NCBI RefSeq assembly: GCF_000379665.1
Contig: NZ_KB903360.1
Location: 126,175-190,174 of the forward strand
Length of the DNA stretch: 64,000 bases
From: Butyricimonas synergistica DSM 23225
GTDB lineage: Bacteria; Bacteroidota; Bacteroidia; Bacteroidales; Marinifilaceae
Direction: 5' to 3'
Position numbers and translations under genes: made by a program. How positions within the stretch are numbered: the stretch's first letter is position 1; every line of letters starts with the position of its first letter. Below, in pieces: positions 13,126 through 25,007 of the stretch. The notes beneath the pieces were generated by a model. The model did not search any database, was not told the DNA's origin, and was given only the letters and a program-made list of their open reading frames with translations.

Positions 13126-14178
13126 TTACAAATTTTCGGGCATACAAAGCCTTGCCATCAGGTAAGAAACCGTTGATTCCGCCCCCTGGTTTAAATTTAT
13201 ATTGCATTCTTCCAAGCCATCATAACATCCCCCGGTGGAAGGATTATAGACAATCTGGTGAAGATGGTTATTCCCCAAGAACCAGTTGAAAGCGATTCTC
13301 CGTTTCATCAAAAACTCCTTATCCCCGAACACGGAATAAAAAGTAGACAGTGCGATCACGGTACCGGCAATATCCACGGGTTGTTCACCATAGGTTTTCC
13401 CGCGAACCGATTTTTGAAGCCATCCCTGGTTAGAAACAACTTTTATCTGTTCCCCCTCAAATAAAATATCAAGTAAAAAATGGAACGACTCTTCGGCAAC
13501 ATCCTTGTACGTTTCGCTCTTAATGACCCGATACGCGTACAACAGGCTTTCCGGAAGCACGTTATTATCATACGTCAGGTAAGCTTCGAACCATCTCCAA
13601 TCCTCCTCACGACTTTGCCGGTAACAACGGATCAACCTATCAGCCAGAACCGTGATAAGCCCGACCACTTCTTTCGAGGGAAACGTCTGTTGGAAACAAG
13701 ACAACCCCTTGATGGCGAATGCCATACTTCTCGGCGATCGCATCTTCAGGATCATATCAAATGTCTGCTCGAAAATCTCGATCGCGTCTTCCGTCCACAC
13801 GACCGGAAACTTACCCCCGTGCGAAACAAAATATCCCAACGCATATATAGCCCGGGCATTACTGTCTTCCAGTCCGACCTCATCATTCTGGGAAGTAAAC
13901 GCGAGGTCTTTATCCGTGTAATTCAGAAAAGAACCGTCCGGTTGTTGGCAATACCTGATAAAATCAAGATATTTCTTTATATATGTTTCACACGACATAT
14001 CCTTCATTTCAACATATACCCGGCACAAGGCTATCAACGCGCGGGCGTTATCATCCAAGGTATAGCCCGAACGAATATCCGGGCGGTTTCCCCTCGAAAA
14101 TTGAATCATCGCGAAAGAACGAGTCATTCTTTTTACATGATCCGTCTTGACCGGAGGCAAAGAATAAATCAATTCCAC
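13126..14178 (-). CDS. alpha/alpha-toroid domain, probable 3' half of a split glycosyltransferase gene
   Basis: A 350-residue helical, repeat-like protein with SGYTLDDNARALIALCR, the QPDGSFLNY block, LEDSNARAIYALGY, DWRWFEAYLTYDNNVLPESLLYA and QPVDIAGTVIALSTFY, typical of the alpha/alpha-toroid domains that accompany Bacteroidetes GT4 glycosyltransferases and GH130 enzymes. No ATG begins it: the frame is closed by a TGA six codons upstream, and GTG at 14178 is the only initiation codon there. That GTG lies in mobile-element DNA. Removing the element (14175-22832) joins this frame directly to the GT4 protein (…AEKLI-YSLPPVK…). I therefore read it as the C-terminal half of one original protein of about 735 residues. 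Whether it is still translated is unknown. Confidence 0.75.
   Translation of the reverse strand: MELIYSLPPVKTDHVKRMTRSFAMIQFSRGNRPDIRSGYTLDDNARALIALCRVYVEMKDMSCETYIKKYLDFIRYCQQPDGSFLNYTDKDLAFTSQNDEVGLEDSNARAIYALGYFVSHGGKFPVVWTEDAIEIFEQTFDMILKMRSPRSMAFAIKGLSCFQQTFPSKEVVGLITVLADRLIRCYRQSREEDWRWFEAYLTYDNNVLPESLLYAYRVIKSETYKDVAEESFHFLLDILFEGEQIKVVSNQGWLQKSVRGKTYGEQPVDIAGTVIALSTFYSVFGDKEFLMKRRIAFNWFLGNNHLHQIVYNPSTGGCYDGLEECNINLNQGAESTVSYLMARLCMPENL
14166..14174. repeat. left attachment-site core (attL)
   Basis: AAATCAATT, repeated identically at 22824-22832. Outside sequence on this side (toroid gene) and on the other side (GT4 gene) join in frame when one copy and the intervening DNA are removed. 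Confidence 0.7.
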
Positions 14179-14304
14179 ATGAAGATTCGGAGGTCAAAAC
14201 GACGGCAAACGGAAGCAAAAGTTAGCGTTATAAAATACTGATTTACAGGATATAATTTTTAACAAACCGAAATTTTGGCTATTGGCGAATCGTCCTTTTT
14301 GGAG

Positions 14305-14312
14305 TAATTTTG
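14305..14312 (+). promoter_or_regulatory. promoter -7 element for the element's first gene
   Basis: TAATTTTG is a perfect TAnnTTTG; ATTG 20 bases upstream (near 14281) can serve as the -33 element. It lies about 98 bases before the HTH gene. Confidence 0.5.
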
Positions 14313-14393
14313 TACCGCCATTGTACCACGTGAGAGGGGTCGCACGGCACGACATCCTTTCAACAGCGTGCAACAATGTTCAACAGTGTGCAA
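14311..14393 (+). repeat. paired direct repeats at the left end of the element
   Basis: TGTACCGC (14311) and TGTACCAC (14322) are spaced 11 bases apart; TTCAACAGCGTGCAA (14359) and TTCAACAGTGTGCAA (14379) are spaced 20 bases apart. Their position between attL and the integrase suggests arm-type sites for integrase or excisionase. Confidence 0.5.
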
Positions 14394-14409
14394 ATAAATT
14401 TCTTCGATT

Positions 14410-15231
14410 ATGGACCGTCATATTAAACAGAATTTAACGGGTCAGTCCCATTCAGAATGGGATATGCCAAGCAAGCCGTTCCTCACCATTGGAGAGGTGG
14501 CGAACCTTCTGCAAGTGAGCAACAGAACCGTGTACAACTTGATATACAAGGGTACACTCAGAGCTTGCAAGATAACGTATCACATTACGCTAATCACCAA
14601 AGAGGATTTCTTCTTGATGATTAAGGAAACAACCTACTGCAAGCGCAATACTTCGATATTCGCCAAGCAGATAAAAAAGAATAAAGAGAAGATGAAAGCA
14701 GACATACAGAATACAGACAAGGTTTCTTCTTTTCAACAAGAGGGAAAGAAGAAAACAAAGAGCAACCCCACAAAACGGCAGCTCATACCATCGACCAACT
14801 ACAAACAATCCGTGCGTGACACATTCACGGAAGATAAAAATGTCGGTGGAGACCTTTATACAATGGCTGAGATTTGCCAAAAGTTCAATTATACCTATGG
14901 GCGGTTTTACAACCTCCGTATGCGTTACTCTATCCCTTGTGTCAAAGCCAATTCAACCAAGTGCTTCCCCAAAGCGGAAGTGGACAAGGCTATGGCAGAA
15001 GAAAGTGAACGGCTGGGCACTAATCTGACCGAGCATTGGTATTCCTGTTTCGACATTATGCGTCTGTTCGGTTTGGGAAAGACCCAAGTCCGCAGGTTCG
15101 CCCTCACTCATGGGGTCAGAACCAAGCGCATACACGGCAACCGCCTGTACTATCTCAAAGCGGATTGGGATGCCGCCCGAAAGGTATCAGAGCGGAAAAG
15201 CGCAAGCACGAAAGCCAAACGTGAAGTATAG
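14410..15231 (+). CDS. multi-HTH DNA-binding protein of mobile element
   Basis: A 273-residue protein with an N-terminal MerR/excisionase-type helix-turn-helix (about residues 25-60, TIGEVANLLQVSNRTVYNLI), a lysine-rich linker (85-125), and two further HTH-like segments (YTMAEICQKFNYTYGRFYNLR near 147 and SCFDIMRLFGLGKTQVRRFA near 215). Such proteins precede the integrase gene in Bacteroidetes mobilizable elements and probably act in excision or its regulation. It ends 39 bases before the integrase gene. The number of separate HTH units is my reading of the pattern. Confidence 0.7.
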   Translation: MDRHIKQNLTGQSHSEWDMPSKPFLTIGEVANLLQVSNRTVYNLIYKGTLRACKITYHITLITKEDFFLMIKETTYCKRNTSIFAKQIKKNKEKMKADIQNTDKVSSFQQEGKKKTKSNPTKRQLIPSTNYKQSVRDTFTEDKNVGGDLYTMAEICQKFNYTYGRFYNLRMRYSIPCVKANSTKCFPKAEVDKAMAEESERLGTNLTEHWYSCFDIMRLFGLGKTQVRRFALTHGVRTKRIHGNRLYYLKADWDAARKVSERKSASTKAKREV

Positions 15232-15270
15232 CATCCCCTTAACAAGAGCAATAATCAAAACATCAAAGAT

Positions 15271-16377
15271 ATGACAAACATTTGTACAAAGGTAACGGTC
15301 AGAAAACGACCTATCAAGAATGGGCAGGTGTCGCTTTATTTGGATTTCTACCCACCTATCAGACACCCTAAGACAGGCAAACCGACAAGACGTGAATATC
15401 TCGGCATCTACATCTATGCCAACCCGTCAGAGAAATTTGAGGTGGAGTTCAACAAGACCATGCTCCGCAATGCGGAACTAATCAAGTGCAAGAGAACCGA
15501 AGCCATCATCAATGAGGAGTTTGGCTTTCTTGACCACAACAGGGGCAAGGAGAGTTTCTTGGAATACTTCCGCTCAAAGATGGCGGACGATGATAATTTC
15601 AGAAATTGGAATACCGCCTACAAGCACTTTGAGAAGTATTGCGGTGGCAGTTGCACGTTCAATGACCTATCAGTGGACTTCTGTCAAGGCTACCTCACTT
15701 ATATGCTCTCACTCACCACACAGAACAAGAGCAAGATGATGGCTTCCACCGCCAACAACAATCTGAACAAGTTGAAATGCGTGTTGCGCCAGGCATACGA
15801 GGAAAGATGTATCAAGGAAAATATCGCCCCACGGCTGAAACACGCCAAAGAAGCCAATACAAAGCGTGAGTTCCTGACCCTTGACGAGGTGAAAATGCTT
15901 GCGAACACTCCTTGTGAGAAACCTGTTATAAGGTCGGCTGCTCTCTTTTCTTGCCTTACTGGGTTGCGCATAAGTGACATCATCCGTTTGCAGTGGGAGA
16001 ACATCATCAAGGGTGCTGATGGTGGCTGGTGTATGCACATTGTAACCAAGAAAACGAGGACGGAAGCCGTGCTGCCATTGTCTGAAGAAGCCCTTGCCCT
16101 GTGTGGTGAACGCACAGAGGGACAAGTATTCAAGGGACTGACACAAACCATTCTCCCTTTATATCTCAAAGATTGGATTAAGTCGGCTGGGATTACGAAA
16201 CACATTACTTTTCACGGGTTTAGACACACCTATGCCACCTTGCAACTGGCTGCCGGTACCGACTTGTACACCATATCAAAGATGCTTACTCATAGCAATG
16301 TCGGAACGACACAGGTTTATGCCGATGTGGTGAACGACTTGAAGCGCAAGGCTTCCGAACAGATAACACTCAAATAG
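15271..16377 (+). CDS. tyrosine recombinase/integrase
   Basis: Site-specific recombinase of the Bacteroidetes phage/transposon integrase type, 368 residues. It has an N-terminal arm-binding region (TVRKRPIKNGQVSLYLDFYPP), a SAM-like core-binding domain (about 95-190) and a catalytic domain with R233 (TGLRISD), K260/261, H315-x-x-R318 (HGFRHTYATL), H341 (LTHSNVG) and nucleophile Y350. All expected catalytic residues are present, so the enzyme looks functional. It is the best candidate for the recombination between AAATCAATT sites that placed the element here. Confidence 0.93.
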   Translation: MTNICTKVTVRKRPIKNGQVSLYLDFYPPIRHPKTGKPTRREYLGIYIYANPSEKFEVEFNKTMLRNAELIKCKRTEAIINEEFGFLDHNRGKESFLEYFRSKMADDDNFRNWNTAYKHFEKYCGGSCTFNDLSVDFCQGYLTYMLSLTTQNKSKMMASTANNNLNKLKCVLRQAYEERCIKENIAPRLKHAKEANTKREFLTLDEVKMLANTPCEKPVIRSAALFSCLTGLRISDIIRLQWENIIKGADGGWCMHIVTKKTRTEAVLPLSEEALALCGERTEGQVFKGLTQTILPLYLKDWIKSAGITKHITFHGFRHTYATLQLAAGTDLYTISKMLTHSNVGTTQVYADVVNDLKRKASEQITLK

Positions 16378-16396
16378 TAACACAAAACATAGATAT

Positions 16397-16783
16397 ATGG
16401 ACAACATCACATTTGAACAGTTACCGCAGGCGGTATCTCTTTTGATTGAACGTGTCGGACAGCTTACAAGCAAAGTGGAGGAAGCATTGGGCAAGAATGA
16501 CAATCCACAGAGCAGAAAACACAAGTTGCTGACATTGGATGAGGTGGCTGTATTGCTCAACAAATCCGCATCCACCATTTATACAATGACTTCAGAGAAG
16601 CGCATACCATACCATAAACAAGGAAACAAACTCTATTTCTTTGAAGATGAAATCATCCATTGGATTGAGCAGGGCGGAACATCGGGAACAGGTTGCGAGG
16701 AGGATTTCAACAAACGGCTTGAATCCTTGCGGAGTGGCAAGAAGCGCAAGCCGAGTTCTCTGAAAACTGAAACGAACAATTAA
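16397..16783 (+). CDS. excisionase-like HTH protein
   Basis: A 128-residue protein with an N-terminal coiled-coil-like stretch (LIERVGQLTSKVEEALGK) and a MerR/HTH_17 excisionase domain at about residues 50-95 (LTLDEVAVLLNKSASTIYTMT, then RIPYHKQGNKLYFFEDEI). It starts 20 bases after the integrase stop, in the place where recombination directionality factors usually sit. Role in excision is inferred from family and context. Confidence 0.8.
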   Translation: MDNITFEQLPQAVSLLIERVGQLTSKVEEALGKNDNPQSRKHKLLTLDEVAVLLNKSASTIYTMTSEKRIPYHKQGNKLYFFEDEIIHWIEQGGTSGTGCEEDFNKRLESLRSGKKRKPSSLKTETNN

Positions 16784-16797
16784 ATGCAGGAGGAAAT

Positions 16798-17145
16798 ATG
16801 AACAAGGACACTTTAATAGCCATCATCACAAATCAAGACCCCAAACTGGCACAGGCGGTCAGCAAAATGGTTGATTATATCCAAGACAGATGGGCAGCAC
16901 CATATCCCAGCAAGGAACAGACGGAAGCGGTCAATGACTACCTCCGTTCTGTCCATGCGGACAAAGGCGGTGCATTGAATGAAACCGACATCGCCCACCG
17001 CAAGATAGCATCACAAAAAATAACCATCAATGCCATCCGTTTGCTTGACCATGACCAGCTCGACCGTCTGCAAGACGTACTGAACCACATAGCAGAGGAC
17101 AGGGAGTATTATATGCCCGAAAGGAGATACGGCATGGGCAGATAG
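16798..17145 (+). CDS. uncharacterised mobile-element protein
   Basis: A 115-residue soluble, probably helical protein that I cannot assign. It has no signal peptide or membrane segment; the second half is charged (ETDIAHRKIASQKITINAIRLLDHDQLDRLQDVL). It follows the excisionase-like gene by 14 bases and has an unusually strong Shine-Dalgarno sequence, AGGAGGAAAT, immediately before the ATG, atypical for Bacteroidetes and suggestive of high translation or foreign origin. Confidence 0.75.
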   Translation: MNKDTLIAIITNQDPKLAQAVSKMVDYIQDRWAAPYPSKEQTEAVNDYLRSVHADKGGALNETDIAHRKIASQKITINAIRLLDHDQLDRLQDVLNHIAEDREYYMPERRYGMGR

Positions 17146-17177
17146 CAGACCATTGTAACACCATCATATCATTGATT

Positions 17178-17876
17178 ATGGACACCAAGAAACAGAACAT
17201 ACATTACTGCACCATCCTGTCATCCGAACAATGGATTTTTCTTTTGGAAAGCAAATCATCCGTGAACCGATACAAGTGCCTGTACAGGCTGATGTCCGAA
17301 GCCGTGCGGACAAAGACCGTTTATAGCATCAAAGGAATAAAGATTGCTTTGGAGGTGGGACAGGTCGCAACCTCCGATGTGGAGTTAGCCGAATACTTGG
17401 GCTGTAACCGCAAGACCATCGGCAAACTCATAGACAGTTTTAACAGGCTCGGTATGCTGACCACCCGAACCAACAATCGAACTTCCGTTCATACCTTGCA
17501 TTTCCTCACAGGCTGGTATGTCGATGGCGTTCTTCTGACCAATCCCCATTATGTCAGACCTTCGGCTACCGCCAAAGGACAGACAGGCGATATACGGACA
17601 CCTGCCACCGACACATCTTTTTCTTTTGGTGGGCAATGTAATGACCAACGGCATGAACAGGAAGCGGACAGCACAAAGTGCGATACATTCCCTCTTTCTT
17701 CTTCCCTTTGTTCGTCTGAAACTCCCGACCTGCCACCTCCGAACTTTTTTGATGAGGAAGAAACGGACAATCCCCATATCATTGACTATGGGGATAGACC
17801 GTTAGACAGCATCCCCACGGAGAGCCATAAAAAGGCGCAGGACGGCACGAATGACGGCGAGGCTATCCCGACATAG
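17178..17876 (+). CDS. winged-helix/HTH accessory protein of mobile element
   Basis: About 232 residues. The N-terminal half has a replication- or regulation-type winged helix: RYKCLYRLMSEAV, then SDVELAEYLGCNRKTIGKLIDSFNRLGMLTT at about 70-100. The C-terminal half is low-complexity, polar and proline-rich and probably disordered. ATG at 17178 is preferred over TTG at 17172. It is the last gene before the hairpin region and the relaxase, so a role in element regulation or transfer is plausible but unproven. Confidence 0.65.
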   Translation: MDTKKQNIHYCTILSSEQWIFLLESKSSVNRYKCLYRLMSEAVRTKTVYSIKGIKIALEVGQVATSDVELAEYLGCNRKTIGKLIDSFNRLGMLTTRTNNRTSVHTLHFLTGWYVDGVLLTNPHYVRPSATAKGQTGDIRTPATDTSFSFGGQCNDQRHEQEADSTKCDTFPLSSSLCSSETPDLPPPNFFDEEETDNPHIIDYGDRPLDSIPTESHKKAQDGTNDGEAIPT

Positions 17877-17942
17877 ATGCAAGTGAAGACGGGCGCAAAA
17901 AGCGGAATTTCAAGCGGTACTCCGTTGTCGTGGAGTGACTGA

Positions 17943-18200
17943 CTGGACTTGTCCAGATATAGCCCACTATAACTACACGCTTCGCTTCCGTAGTTGTGGG
18001 CTCTCCCGAGGGGCTGGGCTTTGCCCCGTCCCACTTATGGCTCTGCCCTAAGAACCCGGTCGGAGGCTGTCAGCCCCCAACACCCCTGACCAAAGAGTGA
18101 CCCTCTCTTTGGAATCTCCGCTCAGAGGTCTCGACCCCTGAGAACCCCGAGCAGGAAGTGACCCTCTCCCTGCACCCTCCGATTAAGGCTCCGCCCTAAT
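17943..18200 (+). other. presumptive oriT: cluster of hairpins upstream of MobV
   Basis: The 359 bases between the HTH gene and mobV hold no gene but at least seven hairpins: CTGGAC/GTCCAG (17943-17956); AGCCCAC...AACTAC/GTAGTT-GTGGGCT (17961-18002); GGGGC/GCCCC (18010-18027); CCAAAGAG/CTCTTTGG (18090-18112); CTCAGAGG/CCCCTGAG (18121-18142); GCAGG/CCTGC (18151-18173); ATTAAGGC/GCCCTAAT (18182-18200). Two of them carry AGTGACCCTCTC in the loop. MobV relaxases nick sites with inverted repeats just upstream of their own genes, so this is the likely oriT; the nick position cannot be read off. Confidence 0.55.
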
Positions 18201-18235
18201 GACCCTTTCCCTATTGTAAATCTGTAAACATCATC

Positions 18236-19792
18236 ATGCCTATGGCACAGAAGACATCAATCAACATCAAGCCCTGCAACATCGGAAGCAGCGAGGCGCA
18301 CAACAGGCGGACAGCGGAATACCTCGCTCATATCGGCAAGGAAAAGTTCTATGTCCGCACCGACCTCATGGCGGCAAACGAGACATGGGTAGCACCTGAT
18401 TTCGGCGGCACTTCGCTGTCGGAACGCTACAATCAGATAGCCGCGATGGTAAAGGAAAAGACAGGTCGCGCCATGCAGACCAAAGACCGAGAACGCGTGA
18501 ACAAGAAGACCGGGAAGGTGACCGTCGTGCGCGGCAGCACTCCGCTCAAAGAGGGTGTCGTGGTAATCAAGGATGATACCACGCTGGAGCAGTTGCAGCA
18601 TTTCTGCGAGGTGTGCAAGGAGCGTTGGGGAATCACGGCACTGCAAATCTTCATCCACCGTGACGAGGGGCATTACGGCATCCCCGGAGATACCGACACA
18701 TGGAAGCCCAACCTTCATGCCCATATCGTATGGGACTGGATGAACCACGACACCGGGAAATCCTGCAAGCTGGACGAGAAAGCCATGAGCGACATGCAGA
18801 CCCTCTTGGCTGAGTGTCTTGACATGGAAAGGGGCAGCTCAAAGGAGCAGACGGGACAGGAGCATCTTGAACGCGCTGATTTCATCATCGCCAAGCAGAA
18901 GCAGGAAGCCGAACAGGTAAAGGCGGAAAAGGAAGCAGCCGAAGCCGACAGGGATGCCGCGATCCGTGAAACGGACAATGCCAAATCCGAACATGAAAAG
19001 CTACAAATCGGGAACGAGGAGAAGCAGCGTCGCAGCGAGGAACTTGACAGCGAAATCGCCGAAAAGGAAGAACGTGCGCGAGAGGTTGACAGGGAGAACA
19101 CGGACAGCATAAAGTCCGGCATCGCCAACCTTTTCGGTAAGGGCAAGTACGCAGCCATCGAGCAGGAGAACGAGAAGCTGAAAGCCGAGAACGAGCATAT
19201 CAAAGAGTCTTTCCCCGATGCCGTCAGGAAAGAGGTGGAGAAACGGACTAAGGAGCTGACCGAGGCGAAGCGGACGGTCGAACTGGAGCGCGACAGTGCT
19301 ATGGCAATCGCTGACACTTATGAATCCGAGAGGGACACGGCTCTGCGGCAGCTTCGGGAGCAGAAGAGCGGGGAGCAGCACCGCATCAGCATGGCGGTGA
19401 GCCGGGCAACGGCGGAGAAGGACAAGACCATAGAGCGGTTGCAGGGTGCGCTGAAATCGAGCCGGGATATCCTGAATATCATCGCCGATATTCTCTACAA
19501 GGCAAGCGAGGTGTTCAGGCGAGCCGTTGAAGCGATTATCCATTTCGCCACGGAACGGCACAAGTCAATCTTCTCTCCCTCCGAAGCCGCCGACATCAAG
19601 AGCGTTATGCAGAGCTACGGCGAGACCACCGAACAGCAGAAAGCGGTCGGCGCATGGCTCTGTGATTATGCGGAACACCGACAGCCCTTTGATGAAATCA
19701 AACATCGCCATACACTCAATGAGGTTGGCGATGTCGCGGAAGGTCGGTATGACTGGAAGATTGAGAGAGGGCGAGGTGGAATCAGTCTGTAA
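18236..19792 (+). CDS. MobV-family relaxase (plasmid recombination/mobilisation protein)
   Basis: Relaxase that nicks oriT and pilots DNA through a helper conjugation system. The 518-residue protein has the MobV N-terminal motif (QKTSINIKPCNIGSSEAHNRR) and the metal and catalytic box H141-R-D-E144-G-H146 with H161-A-H163 (PNLHAHIVWDW). Residues about 205-420 are a long E/K/R-rich coiled coil, as in other Bacteroides MobV proteins; the C-terminus is helical. GC content and codon use are clearly higher than in the following cargo genes. ATG at 18236 or 18242 may start it. Confidence 0.92.
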   Translation: MPMAQKTSINIKPCNIGSSEAHNRRTAEYLAHIGKEKFYVRTDLMAANETWVAPDFGGTSLSERYNQIAAMVKEKTGRAMQTKDRERVNKKTGKVTVVRGSTPLKEGVVVIKDDTTLEQLQHFCEVCKERWGITALQIFIHRDEGHYGIPGDTDTWKPNLHAHIVWDWMNHDTGKSCKLDEKAMSDMQTLLAECLDMERGSSKEQTGQEHLERADFIIAKQKQEAEQVKAEKEAAEADRDAAIRETDNAKSEHEKLQIGNEEKQRRSEELDSEIAEKEERAREVDRENTDSIKSGIANLFGKGKYAAIEQENEKLKAENEHIKESFPDAVRKEVEKRTKELTEAKRTVELERDSAMAIADTYESERDTALRQLREQKSGEQHRISMAVSRATAEKDKTIERLQGALKSSRDILNIIADILYKASEVFRRAVEAIIHFATERHKSIFSPSEAADIKSVMQSYGETTEQQKAVGAWLCDYAEHRQPFDEIKHRHTLNEVGDVAEGRYDWKIERGRGGISL

Positions 19793-19814
19793 TCCCTTTA
19801 TAACTCTCACATAG

Positions 19815-19840
19815 CCAAAATCGGTTATCCGTCAACTTCA
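19815..19840 (-). repeat. immunity-array repeat, 5' part, copy 1
   Basis: Minus strand encodes TTG-start MKLTDNRFW, related to copies at 20209-20238 and 21132-21164. It overlaps the stop of the preceding immunity-like gene (TTGA). The short ORF continues to a TGA within the mobV 3' end, antisense. Confidence 0.7.
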
Positions 19841-20206
19841 ATCTATGATGTAGGCTTCGGATGTTAAAATATCTACGATGTGTTCGGTTGTCTTTATTGC
19901 ATAGTGCTTTACGTTTAGAGAAGTTCCATACAACGCTCTCATCCCAGTTGCCATGATTTCTCCCAGATAAGAGGAATTTTCCACTTCGTATAAGGGGCTG
20001 GAAGTCAATCCCACCATAACCTCAGTCATTCTAAAGTGTTCAAGAGTTACACGATAAGCAAATACATTCCTAAATCGAATGGCAATCGTTCCTCTGTTGT
20101 CGAAACGATCAAGCATAATTTTAAGGTCGGTAGCGTCATAATCTATTGAATTGATTGAACATTCGCAATCAATTACATTTATCTGATGGTATATCTCACT
20201 TTCCAT
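19838..20206 (-). CDS. putative orphan immunity-type protein
   Basis: A 122-residue cytosolic protein without signal peptide or membrane segment; I do not recognise its family. ATG at 20206 is preferred over a TTG two codons earlier. It is flanked on both sides by copies of the array repeat, like the Imm-type genes next to it, and its size and acidic composition suit a cytoplasmic immunity protein. The function is inferred from context alone. Confidence 0.6.
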   Translation of the reverse strand: MESEIYHQINVIDCECSINSIDYDATDLKIMLDRFDNRGTIAIRFRNVFAYRVTLEHFRMTEVMVGLTSSPLYEVENSSYLGEIMATGMRALYGTSLNVKHYAIKTTEHIVDILTSEAYIID

Positions 20207-20208
20207 AC

Positions 20209-20238
20209 CCAAAAAATCGTTTATCTGTCAGTTTCATT
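20209..20238 (-). repeat. immunity-array repeat, 5' part, copy 2
   Basis: Minus strand reads ATG AAA CTG ACA GAT AAA then CGATTTTTTGGG, encoding MKLTDKRF. It stands directly before the ATG of the downstream immunity-type gene and differs from the other copies by two extra T. Confidence 0.7.
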
Positions 20239-20307
20239 ATTTTCCGTTGCTATTCGTGGTCTCTTGTATTTTGTTTAAAGGTCGTTTTGGATTTGCATTT
20301 CGCAGTT

Positions 20308-20973
20308 TTAGACAAAATCTATTTCTTCATAAAAATATCCACCTTTAACAAGGTTATATCCAACAATGTTTTCGCGTTGCATAGCATTAACTATTCGTTC
20401 TGAGAAAAAGAAGCCGCCTCCTTGAGGATACAATAAATCATAATCTCTATAGGTGTCCTTTAATACCACTTTTTTCAAACAATAATCATTAGGGTCATTA
20501 TAATATTCTGTGCGATTATTGAATGTCTTAATGTTTCCATTATCAAACATATCCTTAAATATACATTTGGGATAGACAAACTCAGTATCTGGTATTATAG
20601 GGATAAATAAAAGATAGAACTCCTCTGCATAATCTTTGATAGATATTTTCTTGAATACATACTCGTCTTTTGAAACATTCAAATGCTCAAAAATTTGTTT
20701 TATTTTATAGCTAACTACTGCAACCAAACTTAAGCAAGAAGGCGTAAAATCCATAAAGTCTATCACGCCATTTCGTTTAATTAGTTTACCTCGAAGATTA
20801 TCCGGCATTTCTTCGTACAAGTTCTTTCTATTTTCAAAATACATTGAGATAGTTTTATTATTATCTAAGATGTATTTTAGAAAATTAGGTGTGTCTATAC
20901 TAATAGTATGAGGCATTTCATAATTACCTCTTATACTCTTTTCTAAAGTAAATGACAATTGATAGTATTTCAT
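20308..20973 (-). CDS. Imm43-like orphan immunity protein
   Basis: A 221-residue soluble, AT-rich-coded protein. MKYYQLSFTLEKS is taken as the start (ATG at 20973) because the longer frame from 21027 runs into the upstream repeat. The pattern, including DYDLLYPQGGGFFFSERIVNAM near the C-terminus (ligand-like YPQGG and FFFSERIV), resembles Imm43-type immunity proteins of polymorphic-toxin systems. No toxin gene is present, so it would be an orphan. A repeat-borne -7 element TAACTTTG lies 25 bases upstream. The exact Imm family is a moderate-confidence call. Confidence 0.6.
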   Translation of the reverse strand: MKYYQLSFTLEKSIRGNYEMPHTISIDTPNFLKYILDNNKTISMYFENRKNLYEEMPDNLRGKLIKRNGVIDFMDFTPSCLSLVAVVSYKIKQIFEHLNVSKDEYVFKKISIKDYAEEFYLLFIPIIPDTEFVYPKCIFKDMFDNGNIKTFNNRTEYYNDPNDYCLKKVVLKDTYRDYDLLYPQGGGFFFSERIVNAMQRENIVGYNLVKGGYFYEEIDFV

Positions 20974-20996
20974 ATGTCTATACTTATTATACCAAA

Positions 20997-21080
20997 ACAA
21001 AGTTAATACAATTCTCGCTAAAACCATAACATCACTATGCGTAAAGTGCTTGAGCTGAATGGAAAAACTGAAATCTTATC
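20997..21080 (-). repeat. 84-bp immunity-array repeat, copy A (carries a promoter)
   Basis: Matches 21488-21571 over 84 bases except for a central ten-base or so variable block and a few single substitutions. On the minus strand it ends in TAACTTTG (21005-20998), a perfect -7 element, placed just before the Imm43-like gene. Confidence 0.85.
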
Positions 21081-21158
21081 AATCCCGAATATCAGCATGA
21101 AACCGAAAAACAACATTATTTTCTTAAATATCCAAAATCGTTTATCAGTCAATTTCAT
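21018..21158 (-). CDS. 46-residue predicted small membrane peptide in the immunity array
   Basis: Starts at ATG 21158, overlapping the Imm32-like stop as ATGA, and encodes MKLTDKRFWIFKKIMLFF followed by a hydrophobic stretch and the segment ISVFPFSSSTLR. Its first nine residues are shared with the repeat copies at 19815 and 20209; its last part lies in the 84-bp repeat. It is the only complete copy of the repeated unit. It could be a translated membrane peptide, a leader, or only a remnant. Confidence 0.45.
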   Translation of the reverse strand: MKLTDKRFWIFKKIMLFFGFMLIFGIDKISVFPFSSSTLRIVMLWF

Positions 21159-21164
21159 ATTTTC
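21132..21164 (-). repeat. immunity-array repeat, 5' part, copy 3
   Basis: Minus strand encodes MKLTDKRFW; compare 19815-19840 and 20209-20238. It overlaps the end of the Imm32-like gene. Confidence 0.75.
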
Positions 21165-21412
21165 TCAATGATTAAATCTAATGAGCCATCTTCCAATGAA
21201 TTGTATTCGTCCAAATGTATATGTGTGCCACAAGACACTTCTGTCTGTGCCAAATTTAGCAAATGATTGGCCAACGAAAGCAACCCCTCTCGATTAGCTG
21301 AGATAATGACCTCATTATCATTCGTAGAAATTTTGATGGAATAACCATCGCTCCAGCAAAGCCGAAGTCCCGTGTTTACGTTATATTCAGGTACAACTAT
21401 TTCCATATCCAT
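21155..21412 (-). CDS. Imm32-like orphan immunity protein
   Basis: An 85-residue protein matching the Imm32 pattern: short N-terminal strands, then VIISANREGLLSLANHLLNLAQ, GTHIHLDEYNSLEDGSLDLIIEKI. Imm32 proteins neutralise toxins of polymorphic systems; no cognate toxin is nearby. Its stop codon overlaps the next small ORF (ATGA). Its own upstream region carries the 84-bp repeat copy B with a TAATTTTG -7 element about 77 bases before the ATG. Confidence 0.7.
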   Translation of the reverse strand: MDMEIVVPEYNVNTGLRLCWSDGYSIKISTNDNEVIISANREGLLSLANHLLNLAQTEVSCGTHIHLDEYNSLEDGSLDLIIEKI

Positions 21413-21487
21413 AACAAATAATCGACATTCGATGTGACAAATGTCCCATTAGAGCATGAAAGTTCAAACGAGATTATTGTCCATGCT

Positions 21488-21571
21488 ACAAAATTAATAC
21501 AATTCTCGCTAAAACCATTATGTTAGCCTGCGTAAAGTGTTTGAACTGAACGGAAAAACTGAAATATTATC
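21488..21571 (-). repeat. 84-bp immunity-array repeat, copy B (carries a promoter)
   Basis: Second copy of the repeat at 20997-21080. The minus strand ends in TAATTTTG (21496-21489), a perfect -7 element, upstream of the Imm32-like gene. The peptide segment ISVFPFSS is conserved between both copies. Confidence 0.85.
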
Positions 21572-21647
21572 CTTATTGGGCGTGATTCTGCTGTTTCGAC
21601 CTCATTTCCCTGTCTTTCCCTTCTGTTTTGGCTACTAATTAACGTAG

Positions 21648-21818
21648 GTTGTACCTCGCTTGTTTCTTGAATCGGATATAGCGTTGATTTTCAGCAGTGG
21701 TGAGCAATTCCTTGACAATTATGTTACGTCCGGAGCCACGATGATCTCGATGCGCGAGCTCCTTCTTCCACTCGGTTACAACCTCGTGTTCTTCACAGGC
21801 ATAAACAACAAGGCGTAA
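21648..21818 (+). pseudogene. C-terminal gene remnant with a phosphoribosyltransferase-like motif
   Basis: A 56-codon open stretch closed upstream by TAG and ending at TAA 21816-21818, without a start codon. It contains FLDNYVTSGATMISMRELL and ends in FFTGINNKA. LDNYVTSGAT resembles the PRPP-binding loop of type I phosphoribosyltransferases. It looks like the leftover end of a larger gene disrupted when the cargo was assembled. Confidence 0.4.
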
Positions 21819-22559
21819 TTATGCTATCCAAGTATTATGTTTGCCTGAAACACGTTCAAACTTACCATCTTTCTTAATATACCATATTTCATAGCCGGTA
21901 TAATACCCATCTCTTACAGACAATACTATAAAATCATTTGTCGCTCGTACATAATAGACATAAGGAAAATTGTTAAAAATCACACCTCCGTTGAAATCTC
22001 CATTGTAACGCCAAAGGTATTTCTTTAATTCCTTAATATTCTTTTTAAGATATTTAGCCGGTCTTTCATGTGCTACACTCTTACCTGCTAAAAATTCCAT
22101 TAGGCGGTCATCTATATTCGATGTAAGGTATAACTCGTTAGGTCGCAACCGAGGTGTTATGGTGTATTCAACCATTTTATCAAGATGCATTTGATAATAT
22201 CCCCAAGAGAAGAATAGCGTGTCGTTGGGTGTCGGTGAAATAGGATAGTATTCAACCGGAATATTTTGAGGAATAATTCCAAATTCTTTACTTTTCGACC
22301 TCTTTACATAGTGAGAAACGCAGCTCTGCAATTCTCTGGTAACATGAAAACACGAATCAAATTCAGCATTTACAGCATTGCATATATCTGAATGACAATT
22401 TACTGTACCTGCTACTGAATCAGAATAGGCTTGCCAATCCTCGAAAAATTCAGGCAAATTCTTCTTCGTCAACTTCGGATATTTGCCAAGAAAAGACTGA
22501 CCGCTACAAAAAAGCGCGGTTAGTAACAGTACGAATATTGTGCTAATATATTTGTGCAT
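21819..22559 (-). CDS. secreted protein of unknown function
   Basis: A 246-residue protein with a clear signal peptide (MHKYISTIFVLLLTALFCSG, then a likely cleavage before the mature region; a C in the hydrophobic core may instead mark a lipoprotein). The mature part is unassigned, with four to five cysteines (CHSDICNAV, FDSCF, LQSCVSHY) and an aromatic C-terminal strand region. ATG at 22559 is chosen because it starts the signal peptide; the frame opens at 22616. It is the last gene before attR and is therefore cargo. Its own promoter lies just upstream. Confidence 0.7.
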   Translation of the reverse strand: MHKYISTIFVLLLTALFCSGQSFLGKYPKLTKKNLPEFFEDWQAYSDSVAGTVNCHSDICNAVNAEFDSCFHVTRELQSCVSHYVKRSKSKEFGIIPQNIPVEYYPISPTPNDTLFFSWGYYQMHLDKMVEYTITPRLRPNELYLTSNIDDRLMEFLAGKSVAHERPAKYLKKNIKELKKYLWRYNGDFNGGVIFNNFPYVYYVRATNDFIVLSVRDGYYTGYEIWYIKKDGKFERVSGKHNTWIA

Positions 22560-22577
22560 GGCATTGGTCTTTATCTG

Positions 22578-22585
22578 CAAAGATA
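22578..22585 (-). promoter_or_regulatory. -7 element for the secreted cargo protein
   Basis: TATCTTTG on the minus strand, 18 bases before the ATG; no clear -33 element. Confidence 0.5.
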
Positions 22586-22803
22586 CACATTTTCGCTGAC
22601 ATACAGCGTATTCCATTGAACTTTAGTGTCTCTTTACGTACAATCCTAAATCATAAAAATATCTATCAATCGTTAAGATTTAGTTAAATCTTCCACTTAA
22701 AACACATGACTTTTCTAATCCTTTCACTCCCTGAAAGCAACTTTTTCATTCCCTCTTTCCCTTAACGGATAGTTGTACCGTTATTATCTTATATGGTTGA
22801 TTT

Positions 22804-23979
22804 TCAGCGATAAAAGTCATTAAAAATCAATTTTTCCGCGTACCCCAATTGCTTGTTAAACAAATGCACGTAGGCGATTGCCGTGTTTTCCCATGCCGTG
22901 GCAGCCATTTTTTGCAACCCGGCGATCCTCATTCTCGAACGCAACTTCTCACTCCCGAGCAACTTGTTGGTGGCTTTCGCTAATTGACCGGAATCCCTGA
23001 AATCAAAAATCACTCCCGAATTATCCCTCAAAAGTTCCACCGCGTGCGGTATAGGCGTGGCGATGATAGGACACCCGCAGCTTAACGCGTACACGAAAGT
23101 TCCGCTTACAGCCTGGTTGGGATCTGCCGAAGTGAACAAATAAACATCCGTAAGTTGCAAATACTCCAGGATGACAGGAAGATCCAAATACAAATTTACA
23201 AACCTCACCGAGTCCGCCAACCCCAATTCAACGATTTTGGCTTTCAGCATCTCACGATACGTTTCGCCCTCGGTCTTGAGCACCGTCGGGTGCGTCTTGC
23301 CGATAATCAGGAACAAAACCGCCGGGTTGTCTTTTACAATAGCCGGCAATGCCTCCAGGGTAGTCTCGATACTCTTGCCCGGGCTCAACAAGCCAAAGGT
23401 AGAAAGTATACGACGTCCGGCAACCCCGTACTTTTCTTTCAACTTTTTTTTGTCTTTATGTGCCACCAAATGAGTTCCATGCGGAATGACATTCAATTTT
23501 TCCCGCTCGATACCGTATTCCTTTTCAAGAATCTCTGCCGACGTCCGGGTCATAACGACCACCGCGGAACAGTATTGGCTCAATTGCCCGAGATACTCTT
23601 TTTGTTTCAACGACGGATGGGGCAACACCGTGTGAAAAACAATAATAACAGCTTTCGACAGCAAACGCGTAAACGCCAGGAACTCATTCTCGTGTTCGCC
23701 GAACAAGCCGAACTCATGCTGGATAAGCACCAGTTTTATTTTCGGGTCTTCATTCATCTCCCGCGCTATCCCCGGGAACTCATCAGCCTCCGACGTATTC
23801 AACACATACTTAACCTTATCGTCATAAACATACTGCTCGCTTCGCGCTTCCAAAGCACACACCTTCACGGTAAAAGAATACCCGAACTTCATCTCGATTG
23901 CGCGAATCAGATCGTCCGAGAAAGTGGCTATGCCACATTCCCGGGGCGGATAAGTCGTCACGCATATTATTTCTTTCAT
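22804..23979 (-). CDS. GT4-family glycosyltransferase, probable 5' part of a split gene
   Basis: GT-B fold glycosyltransferase of 391 residues. N-terminal TYPPRECGIATFSDDL is typical of GT4 enzymes with a nucleotide-sugar acceptor loop; LIQHEFGLFGEHENEFLAF and VPHGTH-like IPHGTHLVA mark the domain boundary; the donor site is in LSTFGLLSPGKSIETTLEALP and AVSGTFVYALSCGCPIIATP. ATG overlaps the GH130 stop (ATGA). The last residues (FNDFYR and the stop) are encoded by mobile-element DNA; before insertion the frame would have run on into the toroid domain at 14178. The GT domain is complete and could still work. Acceptor and product are unknown; with GH130, mannose-containing glycans are likely. 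Confidence 0.85.
   Translation of the reverse strand: MKEIICVTTYPPRECGIATFSDDLIRAIEMKFGYSFTVKVCALEARSEQYVYDDKVKYVLNTSEADEFPGIAREMNEDPKIKLVLIQHEFGLFGEHENEFLAFTRLLSKAVIIVFHTVLPHPSLKQKEYLGQLSQYCSAVVVMTRTSAEILEKEYGIEREKLNVIPHGTHLVAHKDKKKLKEKYGVAGRRILSTFGLLSPGKSIETTLEALPAIVKDNPAVLFLIIGKTHPTVLKTEGETYREMLKAKIVELGLADSVRFVNLYLDLPVILEYLQLTDVYLFTSADPNQAVSGTFVYALSCGCPIIATPIPHAVELLRDNSGVIFDFRDSGQLAKATNKLLGSEKLRSRMRIAGLQKMAATAWENTAIAYVHLFNKQLGYAEKLIFNDFYR
22824..22832. repeat. right attachment-site core (attR)
   Basis: AAATCAATT, identical to 14166-14174. It lies inside the 3' end of the GT4 frame. Confidence 0.7.
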
Positions 23980-25007
23980 TTTTTATAAGACATTAATTCA
24001 TTTACCAACTCGTCCAACCCAACCGACACGCAAGCGATACACTTGTCTGCCGCCCCGTAATAAATATACAGCCTGCCGTCAAATACAGCCGCTCCGGTAG
24101 GAAAACACACTTTATTCACGACCCCGTTCAATTCATAATCCGTTTCGGGACGGAATAGCGGGTACGGCAACCTCGCGATCTCGACTTGGGGATTTTCCAA
24201 ATCCAGCAATGCCGCCGACGCCGTGTAAACATACCCTTCCGGCGTATCGCACACGCTGTGGTAAATCATCAACCAACCTTCCGGCACCTCTATCGGCGGG
24301 CATCCGGCACCGATATAACTGGACTCGTGGTCGTACCGGGGTTCAAACATGATATGGTTGGAAAAATCCAGGAAATAATTTATCCAAAAGTCATACGTCA
24401 ACTCTTCGAGGCTATCGACACTCACCAACTGGATATCCGGCTTAATCCGATGCATAAAACACAACTTCCCGTTTATCCTGCGCGGGAAGAACACCAGATT
24501 CTTGTCCGTCAAATAAACCGGCTTGCCTGACCCCGTCTGGGACTCTCGCTTGTTGTAACTCCTGAAATACTTACCGGTATGCCTGCCATCCGATGGAATC
24601 AAATCTTCGAATTGGGCATAGGTAAATCGAGAAACAATAATCCCCTTTCTCGTGAAATGCTTCAAATCGGATGACACGGCTAATGCCCCGATAGCATTTA
24701 TCCCGTTATAGGCGGTATAAGTCATATAATACAGACCATCTATTTTCACGATCCGGGGATCTTCAACGCCTTGGCTCTCGTATTCAAACTCCGGATGCAA
24801 AAAAGATTCCTTACCGCGATAAACCATCTTCAACGGTCCTTCCAGACGGCAATAGCCTATCGTGGAATGATTTCCTTCACGCACGGCGCGATAAAAAAGA
24901 TGGACGGTCTGCCCCTCGGCAATGACAGCCGGGTTCATCACGCCCTCATTTTCAAAACACGCATCCGTCTTTTCAAGAATAATACCCTCCCGCTTTACAT
25001 CTATCAT
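23976..25007 (-). CDS. GH130 family glycoside phosphorylase/hydrolase
   Basis: Five-bladed propeller enzyme of GH130, whose known members phosphorolyse beta-mannosides such as mannosyl-glucose or mannobiose. The 343-residue protein has NPAVIAEGQTVHLFYRAV, the acid-containing GVEDPRIVKIDGLYYMTYTAYNG, FFPRRINGKLCFMHR, and SSYIGAGCPPIEVPEGWLMIYH, then VCFPTGAAVFDGRLYIYYGAADKCI. The signature EDPRI includes the predicted proton donor. It lacks a signal peptide, so it acts in the cytoplasm. The ATG overlaps the stop of the small lysine-rich ORF, and its own stop overlaps the GT4 start, indicating translational coupling. Confidence 0.92.
   Translation of the reverse strand: MIDVKREGIILEKTDACFENEGVMNPAVIAEGQTVHLFYRAVREGNHSTIGYCRLEGPLKMVYRGKESFLHPEFEYESQGVEDPRIVKIDGLYYMTYTAYNGINAIGALAVSSDLKHFTRKGIIVSRFTYAQFEDLIPSDGRHTGKYFRSYNKRESQTGSGKPVYLTDKNLVFFPRRINGKLCFMHRIKPDIQLVSVDSLEELTYDFWINYFLDFSNHIMFEPRYDHESSYIGAGCPPIEVPEGWLMIYHSVCDTPEGYVYTASAALLDLENPQVEIARLPYPLFRPETDYELNGVVNKVCFPTGAAVFDGRLYIYYGAADKCIACVSVGLDELVNELMSYKK

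Follow-up and report, generated by a model that had tools for sequence, protein, structure and literature searches.

In the window analyzed here, a stretch of 64,000 nucleotides of the Butyricimonas synergistica DSM 23225 genome (contig NZ_KB903360.1, positions 126,175 to 190,174), a gene for a glycosyltransferase with a glycosyltransferase family 4 (GT4) domain followed by a putative toroid domain is interrupted by an integrated, probably mobilizable element of ~8.65 kb (14173 to 22832, forward strand), whose ends were fixed by comparison with relatives. The reading we favor, with a probability of about 0.87, is that this two-domain enzyme was disrupted when a tyrosine-integrase element, which prefers traG and is probably mobilizable, inserted at a secondary site.

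The direct repeat AAATCAATT occurs at 14166 to 14174 and at 22824 to 22832, and nothing is shared beyond these 9 bp on either side. The word itself is unremarkable (five copies in the window versus 2.5 expected from shuffles); random pairs of window positions share a 9-mer with a frequency of 2.65e-5, and for 21 x 21 offset pairs ~0.012 such cases would be expected. The significance of AAATCAATT is its position at the element ends, not the rarity of the word. No terminal inverted repeats with at least 12 of 15 matching bases were found at the element ends. Removal of one repeat copy together with the intervening DNA gives a single open frame of 731 amino acids (aa) on the minus strand. A previous reading of the window, made from the sequence only, had proposed this repeat pair at the same positions and a continuous frame after deletion of one copy, and both were recovered. 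Its length for the joined protein, 735 residues, has to be corrected to 731, and the 8,658 bases that it counted as intervening are the copy-to-copy distance, with 8,649 bases lying between the copies. It also described a GT4 frame that crosses the right copy and ends six codons later, which agrees with the new tail FNDFYR, and a toroid frame lacking an ATG; this holds as well, with the correction that the first start codon of that frame is a GTG at 14178, within the element. The boundaries that it assigned were reached independently, as the limits of the similarity to relatives put both ends at the repeats. As for the mobilizable nature that it ascribed to the element, the integrase is present and a mobilization gene is probable only.

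A scan of genome contigs with the joined protein yielded four loci. The homologues in a Massilibacteroides metagenome-assembled genome (MAG) and in Proteiniphilum acetatigenes DSM 18083 (loci L053 and L054) are uninterrupted, with 77% and 78% identity, respectively, over residues 1 to 730, and each is encoded in one frame from an ATG (739 and 745 aa). A Parabacteroides MAG (75%, residues 1 to 536) has a frame that crosses the junction and is lost only close to where the contig stops, and Gelidibacter mesophilus matches residues 1 to 729 at 48%. By nucleotides, the joined window DNA aligns in one piece straight through the junction in both the Massilibacteroides MAG and P. acetatigenes, the latter having related coding sequence at the position of the left repeat. 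The linker at the junction is conserved in the homologues (ETLIYSLPP and ESLIYSLP), and each window half can be aligned with the intact proteins, one as far as the linker and the other from it onward. Matches of ~200 bits or more to the GT4 part were present in 6 of 29 other genomes, all in frames of 753 to 796 aa, and in all six the toroid continues in the same frame after GT4. The uninterrupted frame in P. acetatigenes and in the Massilibacteroides MAG therefore shows that the GT4-toroid gene was in one piece and was split at the linker.

It could also be that two genes that were always separate flank the element and that their in-frame join is coincidental. Both halves are open frames as long as a domain, the GTG inside the element could serve as the start of the toroid half, and four genomes of the same family as the window carry stand-alone GT4 frames of 387 to 393 aa. 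However, those frames score only 62 to 68 bits and have no toroid match within the ~1.1 to 1.5 kb available on each side, and we take them to be distant paralogues; in addition, the join restores the conserved linker, and L053, L054, and the six other genomes have one frame across the point. Contradicted by these one-frame homologues, separate ancestral genes are very improbable and were rejected. In the comparison with related genomes, the sequence-only reading stands on the points compared: the insertion that divided an enzyme is supported by uninterrupted homologues with the same linker, the Bacteroidetes protein of about 750 residues combining GT4 and toroid corresponds to the frames of 739, 745, and 753 to 796 aa, the proposed alignment of the joined protein with GT4-toroid homologues runs through the linker (77 to 78% over residues 1 to 730), and the uninterrupted site sought in related genomes is present in the Massilibacteroides MAG and P. 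acetatigenes. The separate genes in relatives that would have spoken against it amount to the distant GT4 genes just mentioned.

The GT4 half (22804 to 23979, minus strand; 391 aa; Pfam PF00534, E value of 1.5e-18) keeps residues 1 to 385 of the joined protein, followed by the six residues FNDFYR read from the element. The C-terminal half (13126 to 14178, minus strand; 350 aa from the possible GTG start) retains joined residues 384 to 731. The order of GT4 and then alpha/alpha toroid in one chain is based on the Pfam assignment for GT4 and on the single chain seen in the homologues, and support for the putative toroid fold is only indirect. A profile of the protein family matches PDB 7tem over positions 421 to 727, and a GH127 match was below the cut-off. 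In the structure model of the intact homologue, the C-terminal part is predicted to be mostly helical (mean predicted local distance difference test score of 55.6, i.e., low confidence), and for the GT4 domain the model is not good enough to use. The interruption looks recent, because neither half has internal insertions or deletions relative to L053 and L054; the nonsynonymous divergence (Ka) is 0.13 to 0.16 and the synonymous divergence (Ks) is >1.5, so near saturation that this dating holds only within its limits and the Ka/Ks ratio is only a rough statement. In the 420 bases upstream of the GTG, no match to a Bacteroidetes-type promoter motif was found at the threshold applied (24% of shuffles had at least one), which neither shows nor excludes expression of the toroid half. 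The half genes presumably no longer yield the normal two-domain enzyme, and excision of the element would restore the GT4-toroid gene. The GT4 half is directly preceded by a GH130 phosphorylase gene (23976 to 25007, minus strand; Pfam PF04041, E value of 5.1e-48), an arrangement that is collinear with that in P. acetatigenes.

Relatives of the element were sought, with the whole element or its left part as the query, in overlapping sets of 393 genomes of the order, 56 of the family, 395 of the class, 123 and 198 of two other families, and 9 more, as well as in plasmid and phage collections. We examined every listed match that reached the left end, with a tolerance of 5 bases around 14173, which gave 13 loci, 12 of them genomic and 1 in a phage-collection scaffold; a further family search (9 genomes) added no left end. 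Similarity begins at 14173 in 10 of the 13 loci; for the other three, the starting points are 14168 (twice) and 14172. On the right, it stops at 22806 to 22832 in nine loci and at 22700 in a tenth (L131). In nine of the 13 (L057, L083, and L123 to L129), which span five genera and three families, the left end follows directly after the GPSGSGKS codons of a Walker A motif, at the slash in GPSGSGKS/FHM. All nine N-terminal pieces match TIGR03783 (the TraG family conjugative transposon ATPase), and the match ends at profile position 456 to 459. A right end was recognized in six of these nine loci; after it, all six read FHMNSVVRQL and resemble TIGR03783 in its C-terminal part. No right end was recognizable in the available stretches of L127, L128, and L129. 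The family thus appears to prefer, as its usual site, the part of traG that encodes Walker A; in Bacteroidales conjugative transposons, traG is the gene for a VirB4-like ATPase. The nine elements at this one position, in conjugative transposons, probably inactivate the ATPase of their host element. Two right-end subtypes, GAAAATCAATT and CTCTCATATGAATT, are about equally far from the shared end sequence, and both occur in traG. Two plasmid records share the region to the right of the integrase at 75 to 78%, none of 21 plasmid records covers 80% of the query, and the viral contig collection gave no exact match to a 20-base traG-type right junction.

One of the relatives in traG has practically the same integration module, namely, L124, in which the helix-turn-helix (HTH) protein (273/273 residues), the integrase (367/368), and the excisionase (128/128) are identical or nearly identical to those of the window. 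The window element thus has the same integration module as the traG copies, yet it sits in a GT4-toroid gene and not in TraG Walker A codons. A different integrase is unlikely to be the cause, because the module of L124 is near-identical. The host offers another explanation. Its only TIGR03783 match, which is the one TraG detected (L138), lies on another contig than the element and reads GPSGSGKSFFTNHM, with no TTCCACATG at the P-loop, and none of the eight other TTCCACATGAA words in the host genome (G000) is in a GSGKS context. In the genus (six genomes), a locus could be read for 20 of 22 TraG matches, and of those read only the TraG of genome G002 is of the FHM type; it is occupied by a relative of the window element. 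The integration in the window would then be a secondary-site event, favored by the lack of the usual core in the host's known TraG.

The ends of the closest relatives point to an attachment core AAATCAATTCCACATG, which is composed of GAAAATCAA, TT, and CCACATGAAG in succession. The traG targets match its right half, TTCCACATG, the GT4-toroid site matches its left half, AAATCAATT, and only TT is common to both. In the left attachment site (attL; 14166 to 14174), the first seven bases of AAATCAATT are probably host derived and TT is common to host and element. The TraG-type core TTCCACATG (codons F-H-M; 14173 to 14181, forward strand) is present at the left end, even though this copy is not in traG. 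The copy of AAATCAATT in the right attachment site (attR; 22824 to 22832) belongs to the element, because the closest relatives, which are inserted in traG, carry it too and have GAAAATCAATT at this end. In L125, attL is TTCCACATG and attR is TTTCACATG; as they differ at the third base (TTC in attL and TTT in attR), the effective exchange was to the left of that base. For the traG copies, the left flank ceases to match the core immediately before TT, and this puts the exchange at TT or to its right. All events are therefore compatible with an effective exchange at TT that would tolerate unlike neighboring sequence. CTnDOT follows a similar rule of non-homology. Tolerance of non-homology is also described for the Tn1549 integrase in the available part of PMC5871717. 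The element would prefer the Walker A region of traG, where it would pair by the right core part TTCCACATG; in the window, the left core part AAATCAATT would have matched the linker codons K-L-I of the one-piece GT4-toroid gene. The exchange would be effectively at the shared TT in both types of site. In the window, the integration separates the GT4 and toroid domains at the linker.

The 9 bp are accordingly read as the stretch common to the attachment core of the element and to the host, rather than as a simple duplication. Nine-base direct repeats flanking an element could also arise when a cut-and-paste DDE transposase duplicates its target, but the scanned element proteins include a tyrosine integrase and no transposase family, and the closest relatives in traG carry AAATCAATT at the right end. 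We consider the chance of DDE transposition to be negligible and rejected it as contradicted by the ends of the relatives.

Some prophages that reside in host genes act as excision switches, and the window element might likewise be a regulated switch that turns on the GT4-toroid enzyme by excision. The cut lies between the domains and the frame is restored precisely, an integrase and two excisionase-family proteins are present, and neither half has decayed. We nevertheless regard such a switch as quite unlikely, in that nine of the other 13 loci lie within traG (the remaining four were only read in frames), the homologues found are uninterrupted, and no sign of excision control was seen.

Several observations weigh against integration of a traG-preferring mobilizable element at a secondary site. 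No empty site of the same species was available, and the five other genomes of the genus had no match at an E value of <=1e-40. The core was deduced from element ends. The 518-aa protein that we regard as a probable mobilization protein matches Pfam Relaxase with an E value of only 0.046, below the cut-off. Distant relatives that stop short of the left end (e.g., in genomes G311, G982, G1013, G1097, and G1106) are outside the site count. Right ends at L059 (two), L084, and L085 have no TraG after them; that of L084 reads FHMN, and its frame, which is not TraG, stops after 18 codons. Finally, 4 of the 13 left-end loci (L058, L130, L131, and L133) have no TraG-like word in the available stretch, and the specificity is therefore only a preference. 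The phage-collection scaffold (MT838055) has a related left part at a site without TraG. In L058, a right end is followed immediately by another left end, as in two tandem elements.

The same four left-end loci and right ends could indicate that the integrase has a broad, weak specificity with no main target and that the traG copies merely reflect how common conjugative transposons are in Bacteroidales. We hold this to be unlikely, if slightly less so than the switch, since nine copies from five genera and three families share the same TraG position to the base, whereas mere abundance would scatter insertions over the rest of the conjugative transposons.

The integration module of the element comprises, all on the forward strand, an HTH_17/excisionase-domain protein upstream of the integrase (14410 to 15231; 273 aa; Pfam HTH_17, E value of 1.1e-15; TIGR01764 above the cut-off), the tyrosine integrase with Arm-DNA-bind_5, Phage_int_SAM_5, and Phage_integrase domains (15271 to 16377; 368 aa), and an excisionase-family HTH protein identified in Pfam and NCBIfam scans (16397 to 16783; 128 aa). 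Then follow a 115-aa protein of no family (16798 to 17145), found in three of the nine relatives compared (L123, L124, and L126), a 234-aa protein with weak HTH matches only (17172 to 17876), found in eight of the nine, and the probable mobilization protein (relaxase; 18236 to 19792; 518 aa), assigned from plasmid relatives. Its residues 3 to 318 are 47% identical to plasmid proteins, some of which are annotated as mobilization proteins, and no PDB match was found for it. No VirB4 or other secretion-system genes were detected in the element by Pfam on ten open reading frames (ORFs) or NCBIfam on eight. Of the features of an integrative and mobilizable element (IME), an integrase and direct repeats at both ends are found here (the integrase at 15271 to 16377 and the 9-bp repeats), and the element is probably mobilizable.

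The right part holds cargo on the minus strand (19838 to 22616), namely, ORFs of 124, 239, 85, and 265 aa. The 85-aa ORF (21155 to 21412) encodes an Imm32-like immunity protein (Pfam E value of 3.9e-19), for which no partner was identified; the three other ORFs had no Pfam match above the cut-off. The cargo has a G+C content of 0.349, as against 0.494 for the left part, and relatives share no more than fragments of it (512 bases at 95% in L060 and 241 bases at 86% in L124). PADLOC gave nothing convincing for six element proteins. Near the left end (14359 to 14393), three copies of a 15-nucleotide repeat of the TTCAACAGCGTGCAA type (73 to 100%) with a 10-base spacing are possible candidates for protein-binding sites.

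Gene disruption by such elements is ordinary; a base-resolved link from a traG-preferring Bacteroidales family to a metabolic escape site is less so. With both the usual and the escape site resolved to the base, the window illustrates how a satellite element, probably dependent on conjugation genes, can damage host metabolism. A wider picture, for and against which the odds seem even, is that of a Bacteroidales satellite family in at least five genera that parasitizes conjugative transposons via the TraG Walker A codons. Its core would carry F-H-M and keep the P-loop coding up to the cut, the TT between unlike half-cores would give the integrase access to chromosomal genes where a susceptible TraG is lacking, and host enzymes such as the GT4-toroid protein would be broken by these escapes. 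The preference for traG also raises the question of why an element should disrupt the ATPase gene of a conjugation apparatus; possible answers are that it excises before transfer, that it interferes with rival elements, or that it uses decayed ones. A literature search found no report of an element inserted in the Walker A region of TraG in Bacteroidales, which is weak evidence of absence, as it was made mostly without subscription papers.

The closest parallels are the streptococcal IMEs, which, according to the available parts of PMC5357655 and PMC5704250, integrate in traG, snf2, or maff2 of Tn5252-superfamily integrative and conjugative elements. Like the window family, they are small integrase-bearing elements with fixed sites in conserved conjugation genes, which they disrupt. 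However, the streptococcal traG is, in those texts, the VirD4 coupling protein gene, and the disruptions described there are for serine-integrase elements, whereas the window family has a tyrosine integrase and, in Bacteroidales, enters a TraG/VirB4-like ATPase gene at the P-loop. NBU1 and Tn4555 of Bacteroides resemble the window element in being Bacteroidetes IMEs with a tyrosine integrase (PMC5704250, in the part available), a likeness by description and not by sequence; the Tn4555 site described in that part is not traG. For Tn4555, the same part reports that deletion of a gene upstream of the integrase made insertion essentially random. The Tn1549/Tn916-type Y-transposases, as far as the available part of PMC5871717 describes them, share with the window family an exchange with little homology between junction and target, but they use diverse sites, whereas the window family shows a preference and has 9 to 11 bases in common with its targets.

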